DNA of 61,689 bases, taken from the NCBI GenBank assembly GCA_947572385.1, contig CANPBX010000011.1:1-61689 (forward strand), in the 5' to 3' direction. The notes under the pieces are model-generated. The model saw only the letters and a list, made by a program, of their open reading frames with translations. It made no database searches and was not told the origin of the DNA. Positions 21,715 through 29,952 of the stretch are shown here, in pieces. Position numbers and translations under genes: made by a program. Each line of letters opens with the position of its first letter. Positions within the stretch are counted from its first letter, which is position 1. The stretch comes from an uncultured Clostridia bacterium (lineage in GTDB: Bacteria; Bacillota; Clostridia; Oscillospirales; Acutalibacteraceae).

Positions 21715-24411
21715 TTATCCCCGGCCCTGCTCAGGCACCTGGAAAAAGGAAGCTGTGGAGTCGTCCTTTTTCATAAACAGCAGGCCAAAGGACCCCGGCC
21801 CGCAGTTGCTGGCAATAGCTGACGAGGCCTTGTGCAGGTATACCCGCTCGAAGGGGCAGTACTGCTGTACAAGGCTCTGGATGTACTTGAGCTTCTTATC
21901 ATCCATCCCGCAGTAGGTGATGAACATTATGCGCCGGTCAATGTTCCGGGTCTCCAAAAGCAGCTTGCGCACATAGCTTCTGGCCACCCGGTTAAACCCG
22001 CCCATCTTCATGCCGCCGACCACCATCTTGGACTTCCTCAGCACAAGGACCGGGTGCAGCAGCAGCGAGTCGCAGAGGATCTGTATCTTCTTGGATATCC
22101 GCCCGGACTGGCGAAGCATATGGGTATCGTTTATAACAAAGGCGGAGGAGATGAAGCGCTTCATCCGCTTTGCGGTGTCCATGATATCCTCCTTTGAGGC
22201 GTGGTGCTCAGCCATATATGCCGCGCACAGCACCACCAGGCCCATGCTGCTGGAGAGGTGCCCGGAGTCTATGACCGTGACATTCTCAAAGGACTTTGCC
22301 GCTTCGCAGGCATTATGATATCCCGCGCTCACATGCTTTGCCATGGTGATATGTATTATGTTCTGGGCTTCTGTGAGCTTCTGGGCAAAGAAGTGCTCGT
22401 AGTCCTCGACCTCAGGGGCCTTGGAATAACCGCTGCGCCCCTCGGAAATATGCATCAGCAGCTCGTCGGCCTTCAGCTCCTCTTCGTCCAGGAAGCGGCC
22501 CTCGTCGGTACACACATAGTATGGGCATACATGGATGCTGAATTTTTTCCTGAGGGAGCTGGGAAGGTCGCAGACACTATCAGTGGTGACTAAAATTGAG
22601 CGGCGCTGCACCTGCTCGAAGATCAAGATATCCTTCTCGATATCCGACTGGCTGGCCTCATCGTTCAGATGCACCAGCTCCTTGGGCAGGATGCTCAGCA
22701 CAGCCGCCTCAAGCAATGTGCCGCTGACAGGCTTTGCCAGGTACCCGCTAAAGCCCTCCTTGCGGTAGAGCAGCTGGTTGTCGCTGCCGGCATTGGCGGT
22801 GAGGGCCACAACAGGGACGTCCTGGCATAATCCCACAGGCTGGTCCCGCAGGGCGTGCAGGCACTCTATGCCGTCCATCCCGGGCATCATATGGTCCATC
22901 AGTATACAGTCATAGCGGTGGTTTTGGGTGAGCTTCAGGCACTCGGCCCCGCTCTTTGCTGTGTCTATCTGTATCTTAGTGTCAGACAGCAGCTTGCTCA
23001 CCACCATCAGGTTCATGTCGTTATCGTCCACGATGAGGATATGAGCGTCGGGAGCCTCAAAGCTCTGCTTATACTGCTCCCCCTCATGGCTCCTTGCACG
23101 TGAGGCCAGAGTAAACGTACCCAGCTCCTTATCGTCTACAATATCCTGGTCCAGCCGGACAATAAAGGTTGAGCCTTTGGTATAGACGCTGTTCACGCTT
23201 ATCTCGCCGCCCATCATGTCCACCAGCTGCTGTACAATGCTTAGCCCCAGCCCGGTGCCCTCGATATAGCGGTTGCGCTCCTCGTCCACGCGCCTGAAGG
23301 CGTTGAAGATATAGGGGATATTCTCTTTCTTGACCCCCTGGCCGGTGTCCTCCACCGAGTACCATACCCGCACCCGGTTCAGCGCCTGGCGCTCACAGCG
23401 CACGGAAAGAGTGACCGAGCCCTCGCTGGTATACTTAACGGCATTGTTCAGAAGGTTTATAAGTATCTGCTTAATGCGCACCTCGTCGCCGCATAGCATA
23501 CTTGGTATGGAGGAGTCCACGTGCAGCTTGAACTCGAGCCCCTTCTCCTTGGCCTTTATCCATATCATATTGACGATCTCCGAGAAGAGCGCCCCTGTCT
23601 CATAGGAGACGTTGACGATCTCCATCTTCCCTGATTTTATTTTGGACAGGTCCAGGGTGTCGTTTATCAGGGTGAGCAGCAGCTTGCTGGCCCCCTGGAT
23701 GTTCCTGGCGTTTTCAGCCACATCCTCGGGGATGTCTCCACGCAGGATTATCTCGTTGAGGCCGATGATCGTGTTGATGGGTGTGCGGATCTCGTGGCTC
23801 ATGCTGGAAAAGAAGTGGTTTTCCGCCCTGTTGAGCTCCTCGATCTCCTTTCTCTGCTGCTTGGAGAGCTCGTTCTCCTCCTCATACATCCGGTTGAGGA
23901 ACATGAGCAGGATACTTGTTAAGAGCCCCACCATCACTACTGAAAAGGCGGAATCAAAGAAGGAGGCCTGCTGGGTGCTCTGGGCGGCGAGGTCGGGATA
24001 ATAGAAGGCGGCGGCGTAACAGAGCAGTGTCTCAGCTATGCAGATGGTGAAAAACACAGCCATACGCCTCCCGCGCAGAGTGAGACAGACATAGATGAAG
24101 CAGAAAATAAACCACTCGGGCACCCCGCTGTAAAACCCGCCCGCGGAGAAAAAGCTGATGGGGAAAAGCAGGAGCAGCAGGATCGTGATAGCCGTGGCCC
24201 CGGCCTGTATACGCTCCTTCTGAATGCTGACCTTTACGATCATCTCCATGGCCGTAAGGCTTACCACCAATGCCAGGATATTCCATATGCTCCTGCCCAT
24301 TGGCATGATAAGCAGCAGAGCTAACATACAGGTCAGGGTCACGATGCGGAACATCCGGTCGCGCAGGCTTATCCGGTGGTCGTTGATGAGTTCGAACCAT
24401 TTTTTAATCAC
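21715..24411 (-). CDS. hybrid histidine kinase-receiver-DegV (fatty-acid-binding) fusion
   Basis: 898 residues, GTG start. Order: five or six membrane helices (about 20-175) with almost no outside loop; DHp with H206 in SHEIRTPIN; ATPase domain with N-box INLLNNAVKYT (318-328), DTGQGV and GTGLGLSIV; receiver at about 456-580 with D506 in ILMDHMMPG and the conserved Lys in LAKPV; and from about 604 to 883 a complete DegV domain. The DegV part opens with SILVTTDSVCDLP, holds VIDSGHLSSSMGL, MLRQSGRISKK and HPVLVLRKSKMVVGGMK, and ends with ASSAIASNCGPGSFGLLF, the equivalent of the family's HxGPGALG end. DegV/FakB proteins bind a fatty acid in this fold. It lies 51 nt after the second kinase and is probably co-transcribed. 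Confidence 0.9.
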   Translation of the reverse strand: MIKKWFELINDHRISLRDRMFRIVTLTCMLALLLIMPMGRSIWNILALVVSLTAMEMIVKVSIQKERIQAGATAITILLLLLFPISFFSAGGFYSGVPEWFIFCFIYVCLTLRGRRMAVFFTICIAETLLCYAAAFYYPDLAAQSTQQASFFDSAFSVVMVGLLTSILLMFLNRMYEEENELSKQQRKEIEELNRAENHFFSSMSHEIRTPINTIIGLNEIILRGDIPEDVAENARNIQGASKLLLTLINDTLDLSKIKSGKMEIVNVSYETGALFSEIVNMIWIKAKEKGLEFKLHVDSSIPSMLCGDEVRIKQILINLLNNAVKYTSEGSVTLSVRCERQALNRVRVWYSVEDTGQGVKKENIPYIFNAFRRVDEERNRYIEGTGLGLSIVQQLVDMMGGEISVNSVYTKGSTFIVRLDQDIVDDKELGTFTLASRARSHEGEQYKQSFEAPDAHILIVDDNDMNLMVVSKLLSDTKIQIDTAKSGAECLKLTQNHRYDCILMDHMMPGMDGIECLHALRDQPVGLCQDVPVVALTANAGSDNQLLYRKEGFSGYLAKPVSGTLLEAAVLSILPKELVHLNDEASQSDIEKDILIFEQVQRRSILVTTDSVCDLPSSLRKKFSIHVCPYYVCTDEGRFLDEEELKADELLMHISEGRSGYSKAPEVEDYEHFFAQKLTEAQNIIHITMAKHVSAGYHNACEAAKSFENVTVIDSGHLSSSMGLVVLCAAYMAEHHASKEDIMDTAKRMKRFISSAFVINDTHMLRQSGRISKKIQILCDSLLLHPVLVLRKSKMVVGGMKMGGFNRVARSYVRKLLLETRNIDRRIMFITYCGMDDKKLKYIQSLVQQYCPFERVYLHKASSAIASNCGPGSFGLLFMKKDDSTASFFQVPEQGRG

Positions 24412-24462: not shown

Positions 24463-26991
24463 TTATATCCCGGCGATCTGTCCGCACAGCTCCTTATACG
24501 CCTGCAAAAGGGCCGGGTGGCGCTCACGGATAAAGTCTCCGTCGCCCCGCTTACCCGCAAGCTCCAGCTCCTTGGCCTGGGCGGAGAGCTGCTCCGCGCC
24601 GATAGTCAAAGAGGTGCTCTTGAGGGCATGGACCTTTACGGCGTACTCGCCCCAGTCCCCGCTGTCAAACAGGGAAGCTATTTCGTCACTCTTAGCCTGG
24701 CACTGGTCCCGGAACATGCAGAGCATTTCCCGGTAGAAGTCCTCGTCCCCAGCGCAGTAGTCCAGCCCAAGCTGTACGTTTACACCGACTTCTGCAAGCG
24801 GGTCAAAGGGGGAGGAGGCCGCGTCTACTGAAGCTAAAGGCTGGCTCTCCGGGACAGCTGCCTCAGGCGCGGAATTTTCCTCAGGCGCCGGATCCTCGTG
24901 CTCAATGCAGGTTTTCTCAGAGCCGTGGTTCTGGCTGTACAGAATAGAGCTCTTTGGCAGCACCTTTCTGAGCACCCGCTCCAATACGGTGCGCTCAATG
25001 GGCTTTGGCACAAATTCCGTAAAGCCTTCGCTGCGGAACATCTCCCTGGCGCCGCTGACAGTGTTGGCAGTCAGGGCGATCACCGGCAGGTCCTGATATA
25101 TGCCGTCCCTCAGCTCGCGGATACACTTTAAGGTCTCCACACCGTCGAAGCCGGGCATCATATGGTCCAGGAAGATGATATCGTATGACTCATTCTCACA
25201 TTGCTCTATTGCCTCTCTGCCGCTAAGACAGGTCTCCACGTCTATCCCATAGGTCCCAAGGACGCCCTTTGCAACGACCAGGTTCATCTCCTCGTCGTCA
25301 ACTGCCAAAGCCCTGACGCCAACGCAGGTAAAGGGCTTGCGGCCAGCGGCCTGGTCCTCGGCAAACCCGCGCTCGCCAAGCTCACCGTTGAGGATATTGG
25401 CAACAGACAGCGCGGAGAAGGGCTTATGTATCATAAGAAGTCTACTCATGCTGTCCAGGGTGAAGCCGCGCTCGGCAATAACTATCACCCTCTTGGTATT
25501 TGCAAGCTCCTCATAGTATTCACGGTTTTCCTCATATTCCGGCTGGGCGATGAACACATGGGTCAGGTCGTGGGCGCGCTGTATCCTGAGCAGCCCCTCA
25601 AAGTTATGGGCCTGATAGCCGTTTACGCCAAGGCCCTTTATCAGGCTGAATATCAGACCGTCATAGTAGCCCTTGACCTCGTCGCTGGCATACTTGTCCG
25701 GCTTAAAATAGCACCCGATACACAGCTCCTCCGCGTTGGTAAGCATTATACAGGGCCGCTCGTCCACGATCCACTGGGGGATAACTATATGGGCGTGAAG
25801 CCCCTGCTGGGTCTTGCTGGAGAAATGTATAAAGCCGCCCATGGCATTTAATAGCCCCCGGGCAATGGGGAGGCCAAGGCCAAGCCCTCCCGCAAGGCGG
25901 CTGCTGCCGCTGTCAGCCTGGTAGAAGTCATCGTACATTTTGGTGAGCTGGGCGTCGGTCATGCCGATACCGGTGTCGTGGATATCGATGATCAGGTTGA
26001 TACCGTACCCTTCACGGCGGTAGCCTATGCGGACGTTTACGCCGCCCTCCTCTGTAAACTTTATGGAGTTCTCCACCAGGATTTTCAGCACATGGGATAT
26101 CTTTTCCGCGTCCCCGATAAGCACTGCGGGCACCTTCGGGTCGATATCAAAGACCAGCTCAAGGTGCTGGCGGTTGGACTGCAGGGCAGTGGAGGTGATA
26201 ACGTCGTTTAGCACAGAGGTGATCATATACTCCTCTTTAGCGGGGGTAAGCGTACCGGTCACTATCTCCGTATAGTCCATCATATTGCTTATCTGGCTTG
26301 ACAGGCGCTTTCCAGCCATATTTATAGACGCTACATCCGAGCGGATATCCGAATTGAGCTCCTTCCCCAGGGCCACCTCGCTGATACCGATCACCATATT
26401 GATGGGGGTGCGCAGCTCGTGGGAGACGTTGGAGAGGAAGACGGCATTCTGCCGCTCTACTGTCCGCAGATCCGCGAATATATTCTCGTACCACTTATGC
26501 TGGGCAACGCGGCGACTGATCCAGTATCTTGCAAGGGAAGTACCGCCGGTGACCACCACAGCTCCAAGGACCAGCCTCAGGATATCGTAGAAACTAAGGG
26601 AAGGGGAGATGGTGTGCAGAACAAAAGCATGGTACAGTATTGCCAGCGCATACAGGGCAACCGTCACATGCAAAATCCATTTTTTGTTCAATATAAACAG
26701 GGAAAATACCATGATCCCGGCTATAGCCGGGATATCAAATAGGCTGGCCTCATGCACGCTGAAGAAAAAGAACTCAAACAGCAGCAGGCCCGAGCAGAGG
26801 CTCTCATAAAGGGTGTCCGGGCCGATCCTCGCAATATGCAGAAACCATACGCTAAAGCAGCCCGCTACCATCAGGGGGATGATCCAGAGCTCCCAGGCTG
26901 TAAGGACTGTGACGATACAAAGGATGCTGCTGAAAACAGTAGTTAGAACAGCCAGCAGCAGATGTTTGCCGGTTTGTTCATCCGCCCTCAT
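24463..26991 (-). CDS. hybrid histidine kinase with pseudo-receiver, receiver and HPt domain
   Basis: 842 residues. Membrane part about 10-150; DHp H191 in SHELRTPIN; ATPase domain with DTGIGM and GLGLGLPIA; a receiver-like segment (about 412-535) without a phosphorylatable Asp; an active receiver (about 558-680) with D609 in FLDHMMPG and VPKPI; an acidic/Ala/Pro linker; and a C-terminal HPt with H788 in KVHALKSTS. This is a self-contained phosphorelay. Its ATG overlaps the stop of the upstream receiver gene by one base, so the receiver is the obvious phosphate acceptor from the HPt. Confidence 0.92.
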   Translation of the reverse strand: MRADEQTGKHLLLAVLTTVFSSILCIVTVLTAWELWIIPLMVAGCFSVWFLHIARIGPDTLYESLCSGLLLFEFFFFSVHEASLFDIPAIAGIMVFSLFILNKKWILHVTVALYALAILYHAFVLHTISPSLSFYDILRLVLGAVVVTGGTSLARYWISRRVAQHKWYENIFADLRTVERQNAVFLSNVSHELRTPINMVIGISEVALGKELNSDIRSDVASINMAGKRLSSQISNMMDYTEIVTGTLTPAKEEYMITSVLNDVITSTALQSNRQHLELVFDIDPKVPAVLIGDAEKISHVLKILVENSIKFTEEGGVNVRIGYRREGYGINLIIDIHDTGIGMTDAQLTKMYDDFYQADSGSSRLAGGLGLGLPIARGLLNAMGGFIHFSSKTQQGLHAHIVIPQWIVDERPCIMLTNAEELCIGCYFKPDKYASDEVKGYYDGLIFSLIKGLGVNGYQAHNFEGLLRIQRAHDLTHVFIAQPEYEENREYYEELANTKRVIVIAERGFTLDSMSRLLMIHKPFSALSVANILNGELGERGFAEDQAAGRKPFTCVGVRALAVDDEEMNLVVAKGVLGTYGIDVETCLSGREAIEQCENESYDIIFLDHMMPGFDGVETLKCIRELRDGIYQDLPVIALTANTVSGAREMFRSEGFTEFVPKPIERTVLERVLRKVLPKSSILYSQNHGSEKTCIEHEDPAPEENSAPEAAVPESQPLASVDAASSPFDPLAEVGVNVQLGLDYCAGDEDFYREMLCMFRDQCQAKSDEIASLFDSGDWGEYAVKVHALKSTSLTIGAEQLSAQAKELELAGKRGDGDFIRERHPALLQAYKELCGQIAGI

Positions 26992-27350
26992 TATGCTTTT
27001 ATCTCCTGCGCGACCCTTTTGAGCAGCTCCTGGGGCTGGAAGGGCTTCTTCAGATAGTTTACCGCACCCATTTTGATAGCGCTTACCACGTCCCCCTCAA
27101 GGCCTGAGGCTGTCAAAAATATCACAGGTACGTCCTCCACAAATTCCTTCATGCGCTGGAAGGTCACAAAGCCGTTCATCTTTGGCATCTCAATATCCAG
27201 CAGGACCAAGTCCACCTTCTCATGCCTTAGCATATGCAGCGCATCCATGCCGGAGCTTGCAAGAAGCACGTCATAATTTTTCTTTAGTATGATTTTGGTC
27301 CTAGTCAAGTTCATTTCGTTGTCATCCACAACTAAAATGCGTTTTTACAT
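26991..27350 (-). pseudogene. single-domain response regulator with stop at codon 2
   Basis: The natural frame reads ATG TAA AAA CGC ATT TTA GTT GTG GAT GAC from 27350 downward: Met, stop, then KRILVVDDNEMNL, a standard receiver opening. Changing TAA to AAA would give the common MKKRILVVDD start. The rest is intact: LVLLDIEMPKMNG with the phospho-Asp, VPVIFLTAS and the LKKPF lysine. The only downstream start, GTG at 27329, deletes strand beta-1 (KRILVV). Upstream in-frame ATG (27362) also runs into the same TAA. So either this is a recent nonsense mutation or the domain is made by an unusual start. It is the first gene of the operon with both hybrid kinases. Confidence 0.75.
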
Positions 27351-28523: not shown

Positions 28524-29891
28524 TCAGGCTTTTCCCGCAAAGAATCCATCTATCTCTTTTCTGATCTCCTCATGCTTCATATGCTTCAGCAGATACCCCG
28601 ACGGATTCAAGGGCATTACCTTTATCATGCTTTGAGGGTCCCTGCGCCCTGTGAGGAAGATGACCGGCACCTTCTCAAACTCAGGGACAGTGCGGAGCAT
28701 TTCCAGAGTCTGGGCTCCGTCGCATACGGGCATTTCATAGTCCAGCAGCACCAGGTCCGGCTGGTCCAGGGAGATGGCTCTGAAGGCGGCCGCTCCGGAG
28801 TCCACCAGGGACACCTCGTAGTCCGGCTCCAAAAGGGACTTCATGCCCTGGCGTATGGTAGCGGAGTCGTCCACAACCAGTATCTTTTTCCTGTGGTGCT
28901 CCTCCTCATACTGCTCCTTGGCGCTGCGCTCGCTGAGGTATCTTTCGACCTCCTCCATGGCGTTCTCGTTCTCAAGGGGCGTGAGCACCGAGGCCTCCAG
29001 CAGGTGGGGGGCTATGGCGCAGTAGGCGAAATACCCCGCGCCGCCGGTGTTGAACAGCAGGCTCACCTGGGGCTTCTCCCGCTCAAATATATCCTGGAAC
29101 TGCTCGAAGGAGAGAAGGTTTTCCTCCTTGAGCTCGCAGTTTTTGCCGGTCTCGATAAACTCCATGACCTTGCCCACAAACTGCCTGGCTGTGTACCTTG
29201 CCGCGTGCACCAGCATACTGTCCATGCGGTTTGACTGTATTCCAAGTATCTTGCCCACGGTGTTCACCAGCAGCTTCTCCTCAAAGACCATCAGCACCTT
29301 CTGGCGGGTCTCGGAGTCCTTTGAGCCGTACACAAGCCTGTAGTACACGCCCTTGCCGAACTTCTCGCCTCCATATGTATCGCTGACTACCTTGGACTCC
29401 AGGTGGAACAAGTCAAAGACCAGCTGGATTATGACCTTCTTCAGTGCCTCCAGCTCGTTCTCGGGGAGAAGCTCTCCCCATTTGCTCATATTCTTCCCGG
29501 CGATGGCCTGGTCCTCAGTGAGGGTATGTCCCACAAGCCACCCGGTGCATACGCCGATAAAATGCTCTATGGCCTCCTGGGAGTAGTTGCTCTGCTCCAG
29601 CTCCTGCTCAAGGGCGGGAAGGGTGTCTTCCCTGAAGCCCTTATGTATCTTCTTGTGCCGCTCCAAGCCCTCATAGCCCATAGTGGCCATATAGAGCTCC
29701 TCCTCGGCGAAATGCTTCAGGGCGTGCCCGCGGAAGAACTTGATACCCTCCTGGCAGGTGCGCCGGTAATTGTCGCCGTCTTCGGCTGAGGAGAGCAGCT
29801 TATTGATGATTTTGAAAAGCCGTTTATGCTCCTTGTCGATCTCCTCGACACCGATTTCATATTCTTCGAGCCACTCAAGTTGACCTTCCAT
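28524..29891 (-). CDS. hemerythrin-CheX-like-receiver fusion
   Basis: 455 residues from the ATG with AGAAGGA six nt upstream. N-terminal bacteriohemerythrin with all seven di-iron ligands in canonical spacing: H22, H60 and E64 (HFAEE), H79 and H83 (HKKIH), H122 and D127 (HTLTED). The middle (about 150-310) resembles CheX-type phosphatase/chemotaxis domains (VYYRLVYGS, then two long helices). A C-terminal receiver begins KKILVVDDSATIRQG with phospho-Asp in LVLLDYEMPVCDG and a Lys in YLLKHM. Hemerythrins bind O2 or NO at the di-iron site, so this looks like an oxygen-responsive response regulator in an anaerobe. The CheX label is tentative. Confidence 0.85.
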   Translation of the reverse strand: MEGQLEWLEEYEIGVEEIDKEHKRLFKIINKLLSSAEDGDNYRRTCQEGIKFFRGHALKHFAEEELYMATMGYEGLERHKKIHKGFREDTLPALEQELEQSNYSQEAIEHFIGVCTGWLVGHTLTEDQAIAGKNMSKWGELLPENELEALKKVIIQLVFDLFHLESKVVSDTYGGEKFGKGVYYRLVYGSKDSETRQKVLMVFEEKLLVNTVGKILGIQSNRMDSMLVHAARYTARQFVGKVMEFIETGKNCELKEENLLSFEQFQDIFEREKPQVSLLFNTGGAGYFAYCAIAPHLLEASVLTPLENENAMEEVERYLSERSAKEQYEEEHHRKKILVVDDSATIRQGMKSLLEPDYEVSLVDSGAAAFRAISLDQPDLVLLDYEMPVCDGAQTLEMLRTVPEFEKVPVIFLTGRRDPQSMIKVMPLNPSGYLLKHMKHEEIRKEIDGFFAGKA

Positions 29892-29923
29892 ATATATCCT
29901 TCTGTGCTGAGTATTTCCCATAA

Positions 29924-29952
29924 AGTATAGCACAAAAAAGCATAATTGTCCA
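29924..29952 (-). promoter_or_regulatory. promoter of the hemerythrin-receiver gene
   Basis: Minus strand TGGACA (complement of 29947-29952), 17-nt spacer, TATACT (complement of 29924-29929), about 30 nt upstream of the chosen ATG. Confidence 0.6.

Follow-up and report, generated by a model that had tools for sequence, protein, structure and literature searches.

The locus described here raises the question why a DegV domain, of the family that includes the fatty acid carrier FakB, is joined to a histidine kinase and a receiver, and what it does there. The window, i.e. the whole stretch of 61,689 nucleotides that was analysed, contains the following fusion gene and parts:

21715..24411, minus strand: TM-HisKA-HATPase_c-receiver-DegV fusion protein, 898 aa (open frame, Pfam, NCBIfam)
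23872..24411, minus strand: membrane part of the fusion, residues 1-180 (hydropathy; no family match in Pfam)
23632..23823, minus strand: HisKA domain with phospho-acceptor H206 (Pfam residues 197-260, 56.8 bits)
23149..23493, minus strand: HATPase_c domain (Pfam residues 307-421, 95.2 bits)
22702..23043, minus strand: receiver with D506 (Pfam Response_reg residues 457-570, 86.8 bits)
21772..22599, minus strand: DegV domain with M803 for Arg205 and N869 for FakB1 His270 (Pfam residues 605-880)

The frame starts with GTG at 24411 and runs to 21715 without internal stop. A simple hydropathy scan revealed hydrophobic stretches at residues 18-64 (with room for two helices), 67-95, 117-137 and 149-176. 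All four Pfam domains score above their curated cut-offs, and the DegV part aligns over almost the full model (PF02645: 139.3 bits, cut-off 27, E 2e-40, model positions 2-279 of 280; NCBIfam TIGR00762: 152.8 bits, cut-off 99.7). The initial annotation, which gave no strand, had proposed a single frame with membrane helices, histidine kinase, receiver and a DegV domain at about residues 604-883; open frame, Pfam and hydropathy bear this out, and the domain search of the C-terminal part confirmed the DegV assignment and its extent. The phospho-residues H206 and D506 that it named are invariant wherever the residue is present, H206 in 75 of 75 and D506 in 79 of 79 rows of the near family described below, and both in 7 of 7 rows from distant relatives. 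The ATPase N and G boxes and the receiver acid pair, Thr and Lys are likewise invariant where present, which characterises the protein as a hybrid kinase.

Seven of 29 genus genomes, among them the own genome, contain a copy that matches the DegV part at ≥69% identity, with open frames of 720-915 aa. Scanning contigs of named genomes with an alignment of these genus copies revealed 135 relatives, of which the best 80 (L043-L122) are referred to as the near family; five of them (L043-L047) come from the genus genomes just searched. The DegV parts of these best 80 are 67-96% identical. All four parts lie in one frame in 73 of the best 80, although the frames of L049, L080, L104 and L115 end a few residues short of the alignment end. 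Of the remaining seven, L044 has no membrane part, and in six the contig starts no more than 1.3 kb ahead of the DegV part; in L090, one of these six, the DegV frame is broken as well. With four parts in one frame at 73 loci, an assembly join or frameshift between receiver and DegV is ruled out. The initial annotation had suggested looking for this architecture in other Clostridia, where we found it at these 73 loci and in the distant fusions discussed below.

The titles of the best 80 loci name mostly Oscillospiraceae and Lachnospiraceae, and 23 of the 80 carry MGBC or iMGMC labels, which denote mouse gut catalogues. To compare divergence, 40 loci were chosen (35 of the near 80 and five distant ones), L121 being omitted; L050 and L068 were left out of the table owing to split RpoB sequences, and five of the chosen genomes belong to the genus. 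Across the 27 genomes of the near family that lie outside the genus, fusions are on average 76.4% identical to the window protein (kinase core 89.9%, DegV 70.9%), against 66.9% for RpoB. Recent horizontal transfer was considered in view of the higher identity of the fusion and rejected. Between families the four-fold sites are close to saturation, and a quick tree broadly follows taxonomy, with one clade of 39 rows most of which are titled Lachnospiraceae. Old horizontal spread followed by constraint and constraint alone both fit these data. Carriage by plasmids or phages was also rejected: 17 plasmid and 28 phage matches to the DegV part are all below 60% identity, and among the ten listed of each none exceeds 31%, so that these records show no copy of the fusion.

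The genes 5' of the fusion revealed a constant neighbourhood:

24463..26991, minus strand: partner hybrid kinase, HK (H191) - domain X - receiver (D609) - Hpt (H788), 842 aa (Pfam, alignment)
25321..25779, minus strand: domain X of the partner kinase (no Pfam or PDB match; class scan)
26991..27329, minus strand: lone receiver (Pfam; first gene in 72 of 74 loci)

The partner kinase lies 5' of the fusion on the same strand in all 74 near loci whose contig reaches that far, and the six near loci without it are exactly those cut by a contig end. The order lone receiver, partner kinase, fusion on one strand is found in 72 of the best 80 loci. Clustering of long frames at 81 loci (the 80 and the window), with a stricter length rule, recovered the fusion at 80, the partner kinase at 72 and the receiver at 68; no other neighbour family recurred at more than 13. 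The Hpt domain scores 34.4 bits against a Pfam cut-off of 24.6 in the window's partner kinase, which thereby supplies the histidine phosphotransfer element of a phosphorelay, and BLAST detected it on the partner kinase in 73 of 80 near loci. Among the 81 rows, the partner's phospho-residues are invariant where present (H191 79/79, D609 80/80, H788 79/79). The partner frame is shortened in L044 and L052, to 403 and 629 aa. In L044 (7788-10906) the partner and fusion genes look merged by deletion: the partner kinase breaks off about 51 residues into its receiver, at the point where a fusion frame without membrane part begins.

In the window itself, the usual start codon of the lone receiver is followed immediately by a stop, and only a shortened GTG-started frame is open; the frame is intact in the sister genome L043. 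This could reflect decay of the output or an error in sequencing. Promoter-like blocks (TTGATTT and TAAAAT) with similar spacing precede the lone-receiver gene at 54 of 72 loci within L043-L122, a raw count from a loose pattern. Further along, at 28524-29933, the window encodes a hemerythrin-domain protein with a C-terminal receiver; this receiver shares 43% identity over 131 residues with the receiver of a 257-aa REC protein which directly adjoins the DegV fusion of the distant locus L136.

Domain X, about 150 residues long, matched nothing in Pfam or PDB. A KPF motif near its end suggested a worn receiver, a candidate that was rejected since a profile comparison aligned only 13 end columns and PDB gave nothing. 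A probe for domain X detected ten places in 9 of 391 genomes of the class, all of them in hybrid kinases; nine adjoin a DegV fusion, and the tenth (G230:C48) lies at a contig edge. Of 348 genomes in a phylum scan three matched, all within the class.

Does the fused DegV domain retain the residues by which FakB binds a fatty acid and cooperates with the kinase FakA? According to two papers (PMC8892158, PMC9136124), the carboxylate network of FakB1 runs Ser171-His270-Thr62-carboxylate-Ser95, Arg173 is needed for the kinase reaction, and Arg205 for docking to FakA and the membrane; both arginines are described in the former as completely conserved in FakBs. A profile of the fused DegV retrieved FakB1 chains from PDB at E 1.6e-16 and near, with 2dt8 as best match, and we read the residues from an alignment of the fused domains with FakB1 (6nyu sequence) and 2dt8. 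Arg205 is found in 0 of 80 near rows and in 1 of 12 distant fusions; Arg173 is found in 57 of 80 and 4 of 12. The window fusion has kept Arg173 and lost Arg205. The position of His270 is Asn in 80 of 80 near and 11 of 12 distant fusions. The Thr62 position is Ser in 81 of 81 near rows and Ser or Thr in 8 of 12 distant fusions, and Ser95 is present in 81 of 81 and 5 of 12. Near fusions carry Ser (46/80) or Ala (32/80) at position 171. The three tunnel segments of FakB named in PMC9136124 are present in the alignment except for single-residue gaps.

As a control, 47 stand-alone DegVs from the genus and the order were fetched by similarity to the fusion, and thus not as a random sample. All five checked residues are kept in 43; of the other four, one has Lys at 205 and three are kinase-linked with Asn at 270. 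(For L182, L183 and L185-L187 the residues were read in the alignment of the 12 distant fusions, not in the stand-alone one.) The own genome encodes three stand-alone DegV paralogues with all five residues. It also has one FakA gene, answering the suggestion of the initial annotation to look for fakA elsewhere in the genome, and of 39 genomes searched 37 have a FakA match, the exceptions at 1e-30 being those of L064 and L105.

By Arg205 and Arg173, the fused domains thus fall outside the FakBs. With Arg205 and His270 gone and Arg173 variable, and with these residues kept by most of the stand-alone DegVs, the fused DegV most likely no longer works with FakA; judged from its sequence, it is unlikely to be a FakA substrate. 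A true FakB tethered to the kinase and delivering fatty acid to FakA would explain the DegV/FakB sequence match, including the FakB1 chains in PDB, and the FakA gene in the genome; we consider it highly improbable, given that one of the arginines described in PMC8892158 as completely conserved is absent from the near family and the other variable. The Asn in place of His270 and the changes at Thr62 and Ser95 in distant fusions may point to a ligand other than a fatty acid, or to the absence of any ligand. As a sequence mark, Asn for His270 together with the missing Arg205 separates signalling DegVs from FakBs, which now share one name.

Systems outside the near family bear on the role of the domain. 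A class scan (391 genomes, alignment A1, cut 1e-60) detected the fusion in at least eight places in at least seven genomes, including the own one, and an order scan (open frame ≥890 aa, cut 1e-55) in at least 6 of 394 genomes, three of them outside the genus; both scans scored up to six first-look candidates per genome and can miss copies. The distant set comprises 16 Clostridial systems, 12 fused ones outside the near family and four unfused ones. Domain identity in their neighbours was taken from Pfam and domain order from BLAST. Receiver-linked GGDEF or HD_5 genes lie beside 8 of the 16 (L132, L133, L134, L135, L185, L186, L188, L191), a count made without the neighbours of L190 and the receiver genes of L187. 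GGDEF domains and HD domains of the HD-GYP kind act in c-di-GMP turnover. The neighbour is REC-GGDEF-REC in L134 and L135, REC-GGDEF-REC-HD_5 in L133 and REC-HD_5 in L132, L185 and L186, with an additional REC-GGDEF gene further along in L185, of which L187 is a near copy. In L135 each start codon overlaps the stop of the preceding gene. Two genes away from the L136 system lies a GAF-GGDEF gene, and L137 has CheA/MCP-like neighbours. No c-di-GMP gene was detected among the few neighbours scanned at L131, L137, L182, L183 and L189 (one or two for all but L137). The 5-kb contig of L131 is an exception to the usual order: the gene immediately before the fusion encodes a receiver, and the contig shows no second kinase.

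The position of the Hpt varies among these systems. In L136 it is C-terminal to DegV (Pfam) and the second kinase has none; L183 has an Hpt in a separate, upstream REC-Hpt gene (Pfam), and BLAST detected no Hpt in the second kinase. Hpt domains thus occur in three different genes, the partner kinase, the DegV fusion and a REC-Hpt gene, and this swapping argues for a single, shared relay.

In four loci (L188-L191) an unfused DegV lies directly 3' of a hybrid kinase. Three of these are the stand-alone copies that group within the fusion clade, and the fourth comes from G750; constraining the fusions to one clade was not rejected (p-AU 0.33). The receiver of the adjoining kinase is closer to that of the partner kinase in 4 of 4, and in three of the four the kinase core more closely resembles that of the fusion. 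Domain X was detected in three of these kinases (not in L189) and Hpt in two (L188, L191). In L188 the hybrid kinase is followed by DegV and then by REC-GGDEF, the stop codon of each gene lying 39 and 36 bases, respectively, before the start of the next, and in L191 a REC-GGDEF gene lies next door on the opposite strand.

Two further explanations can be weighed against these systems. The DegV domain could be an output, so that receiver phosphorylation would switch a membrane-located lipid-handling domain open or shut, giving the kinase direct control over lipid traffic. Its place after the receiver, where response regulators carry their effector domains, the TIGR00762 score and the presence of FakA in nearly all genomes searched agree with this, but the loss of Arg205 and His270 with a variable Arg173, the REC-GGDEF gene next to two of the four unfused copies, and the Hpt after DegV in L136, which places that protein still upstream in the relay, make it unlikely. 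Alternatively, DegV could be a ligand-free structural or docking domain that, for example, holds both hybrid kinases together. The pairing of the kinases and the drift of the carboxylate residues in distant members would fit; however, the domain is more conserved than RpoB in the 27 genomes compared, the serines at the Thr62 and Ser95 positions are invariant in the near rows, and the unfused DegVs accompany just one hybrid kinase, so that this too appears improbable.

The near family has no c-di-GMP enzyme within its own module, and in the window the lone receiver is joined to neither GGDEF nor HD-GYP. A GGDEF gene is found in 9 of 81 near loci, and the own genome encodes three GGDEF proteins elsewhere. 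V4R and GGDEF gene pairs lie beside the module, on either side, in 7 of 81 near loci (L061, L068, L075, L076, L077, L107, L114), a hint of c-di-GMP near the gut-clade module too.

The pairing with the partner kinase in 74 of 74 loci, the unfused DegV systems, the GGDEF and HD neighbours and the shifted Hpt argue for a conserved phosphorelay module with DegV as a signalling domain. With modest confidence, we read the fusion as half of a two-kinase phosphorelay (lone receiver, HK-X-REC-Hpt and TM-HK-REC-DegV), in which the FakB-related DegV would bind an acyl ligand derived from the membrane and tune the balance of kinase and phosphatase activity, rather than feed FakA. Lipid sensing is a plausible candidate role of the fused DegV. 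The signal, for which we favour an acyl ligand from the inner leaflet, would be sensed by the membrane part or by the DegV domain, kept close to the membrane; binding would shift the fusion kinase between its kinase and phosphatase states. Phosphate would most likely pass from H206 to D506, then to H788 in the partner Hpt and on to an output receiver, the lone receiver in the gut clade and a GGDEF- or HD-joined one in many distant relatives. In the REC-GGDEF and REC-HD relatives the last step would be c-di-GMP turnover. The unit of sensor kinase and carrier-like domain may thus be a lipid-tuned switch. The interpretation offered by the initial annotation, a lipid-responsive phosphorelay, stands as regards a complete HK-receiver-DegV protein in a phosphorelay, for which partner kinase, Hpt and receiver can now be named, but a FakB-like hand-over to FakA does not, with Arg205, His270 and often Arg173 lost.

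More tentatively, and with rather less confidence, we propose a Clostridial class of lipid-sensing phosphorelays that uses a converted fatty acid carrier (FakB-like, with Asn for the carboxylate His), had ancestral c-di-GMP control and is widespread in gut Oscillospiraceae and Lachnospiraceae. If true, a metabolic carrier would have been turned into a signalling domain, and membrane or host lipids would be linked to second-messenger signalling in gut bacteria that are common but poorly understood.

Full-text searches of open-access papers, a scope that excludes most subscription journals, gave no description of a histidine kinase or receiver protein carrying DegV, in agreement with the initial annotation, which knew of no characterised two-component protein of this kind; PMC3146951, PMC9912610 and PMC5654829 mention DegV as a separate protein. 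Known systems share individual features with the fusion. The HK-receiver core is common to TorS, BarA and ArcB (NCBIfam), but the fusion scores far below their cut-offs (e.g. TorS 308.1 versus 676.5 bits) and differs in its input and C-terminal domains. With S. aureus FakB1 and the DegV family (PF02645, TIGR00762) it shares a full-length DegV above curated cut-offs, whereas here the domain is joined to a hybrid kinase, Arg205 and His270 are replaced and Arg173 is variable. In Xanthomonas, RpfC/RpfG (PMC5391125) combines a kinase sensing the fatty acid signal DSF with a REC-HD-GYP protein. Several distant members resemble this system in a hybrid kinase with Hpt beside a REC-HD gene, and in the proposed acyl ligand. 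In RpfC the ligand reportedly acts at the N-terminal input region, and the protein is not known to have a DegV domain. The DegV systems, in contrast to RpfC/RpfG, comprise two hybrid kinases and a DegV domain.
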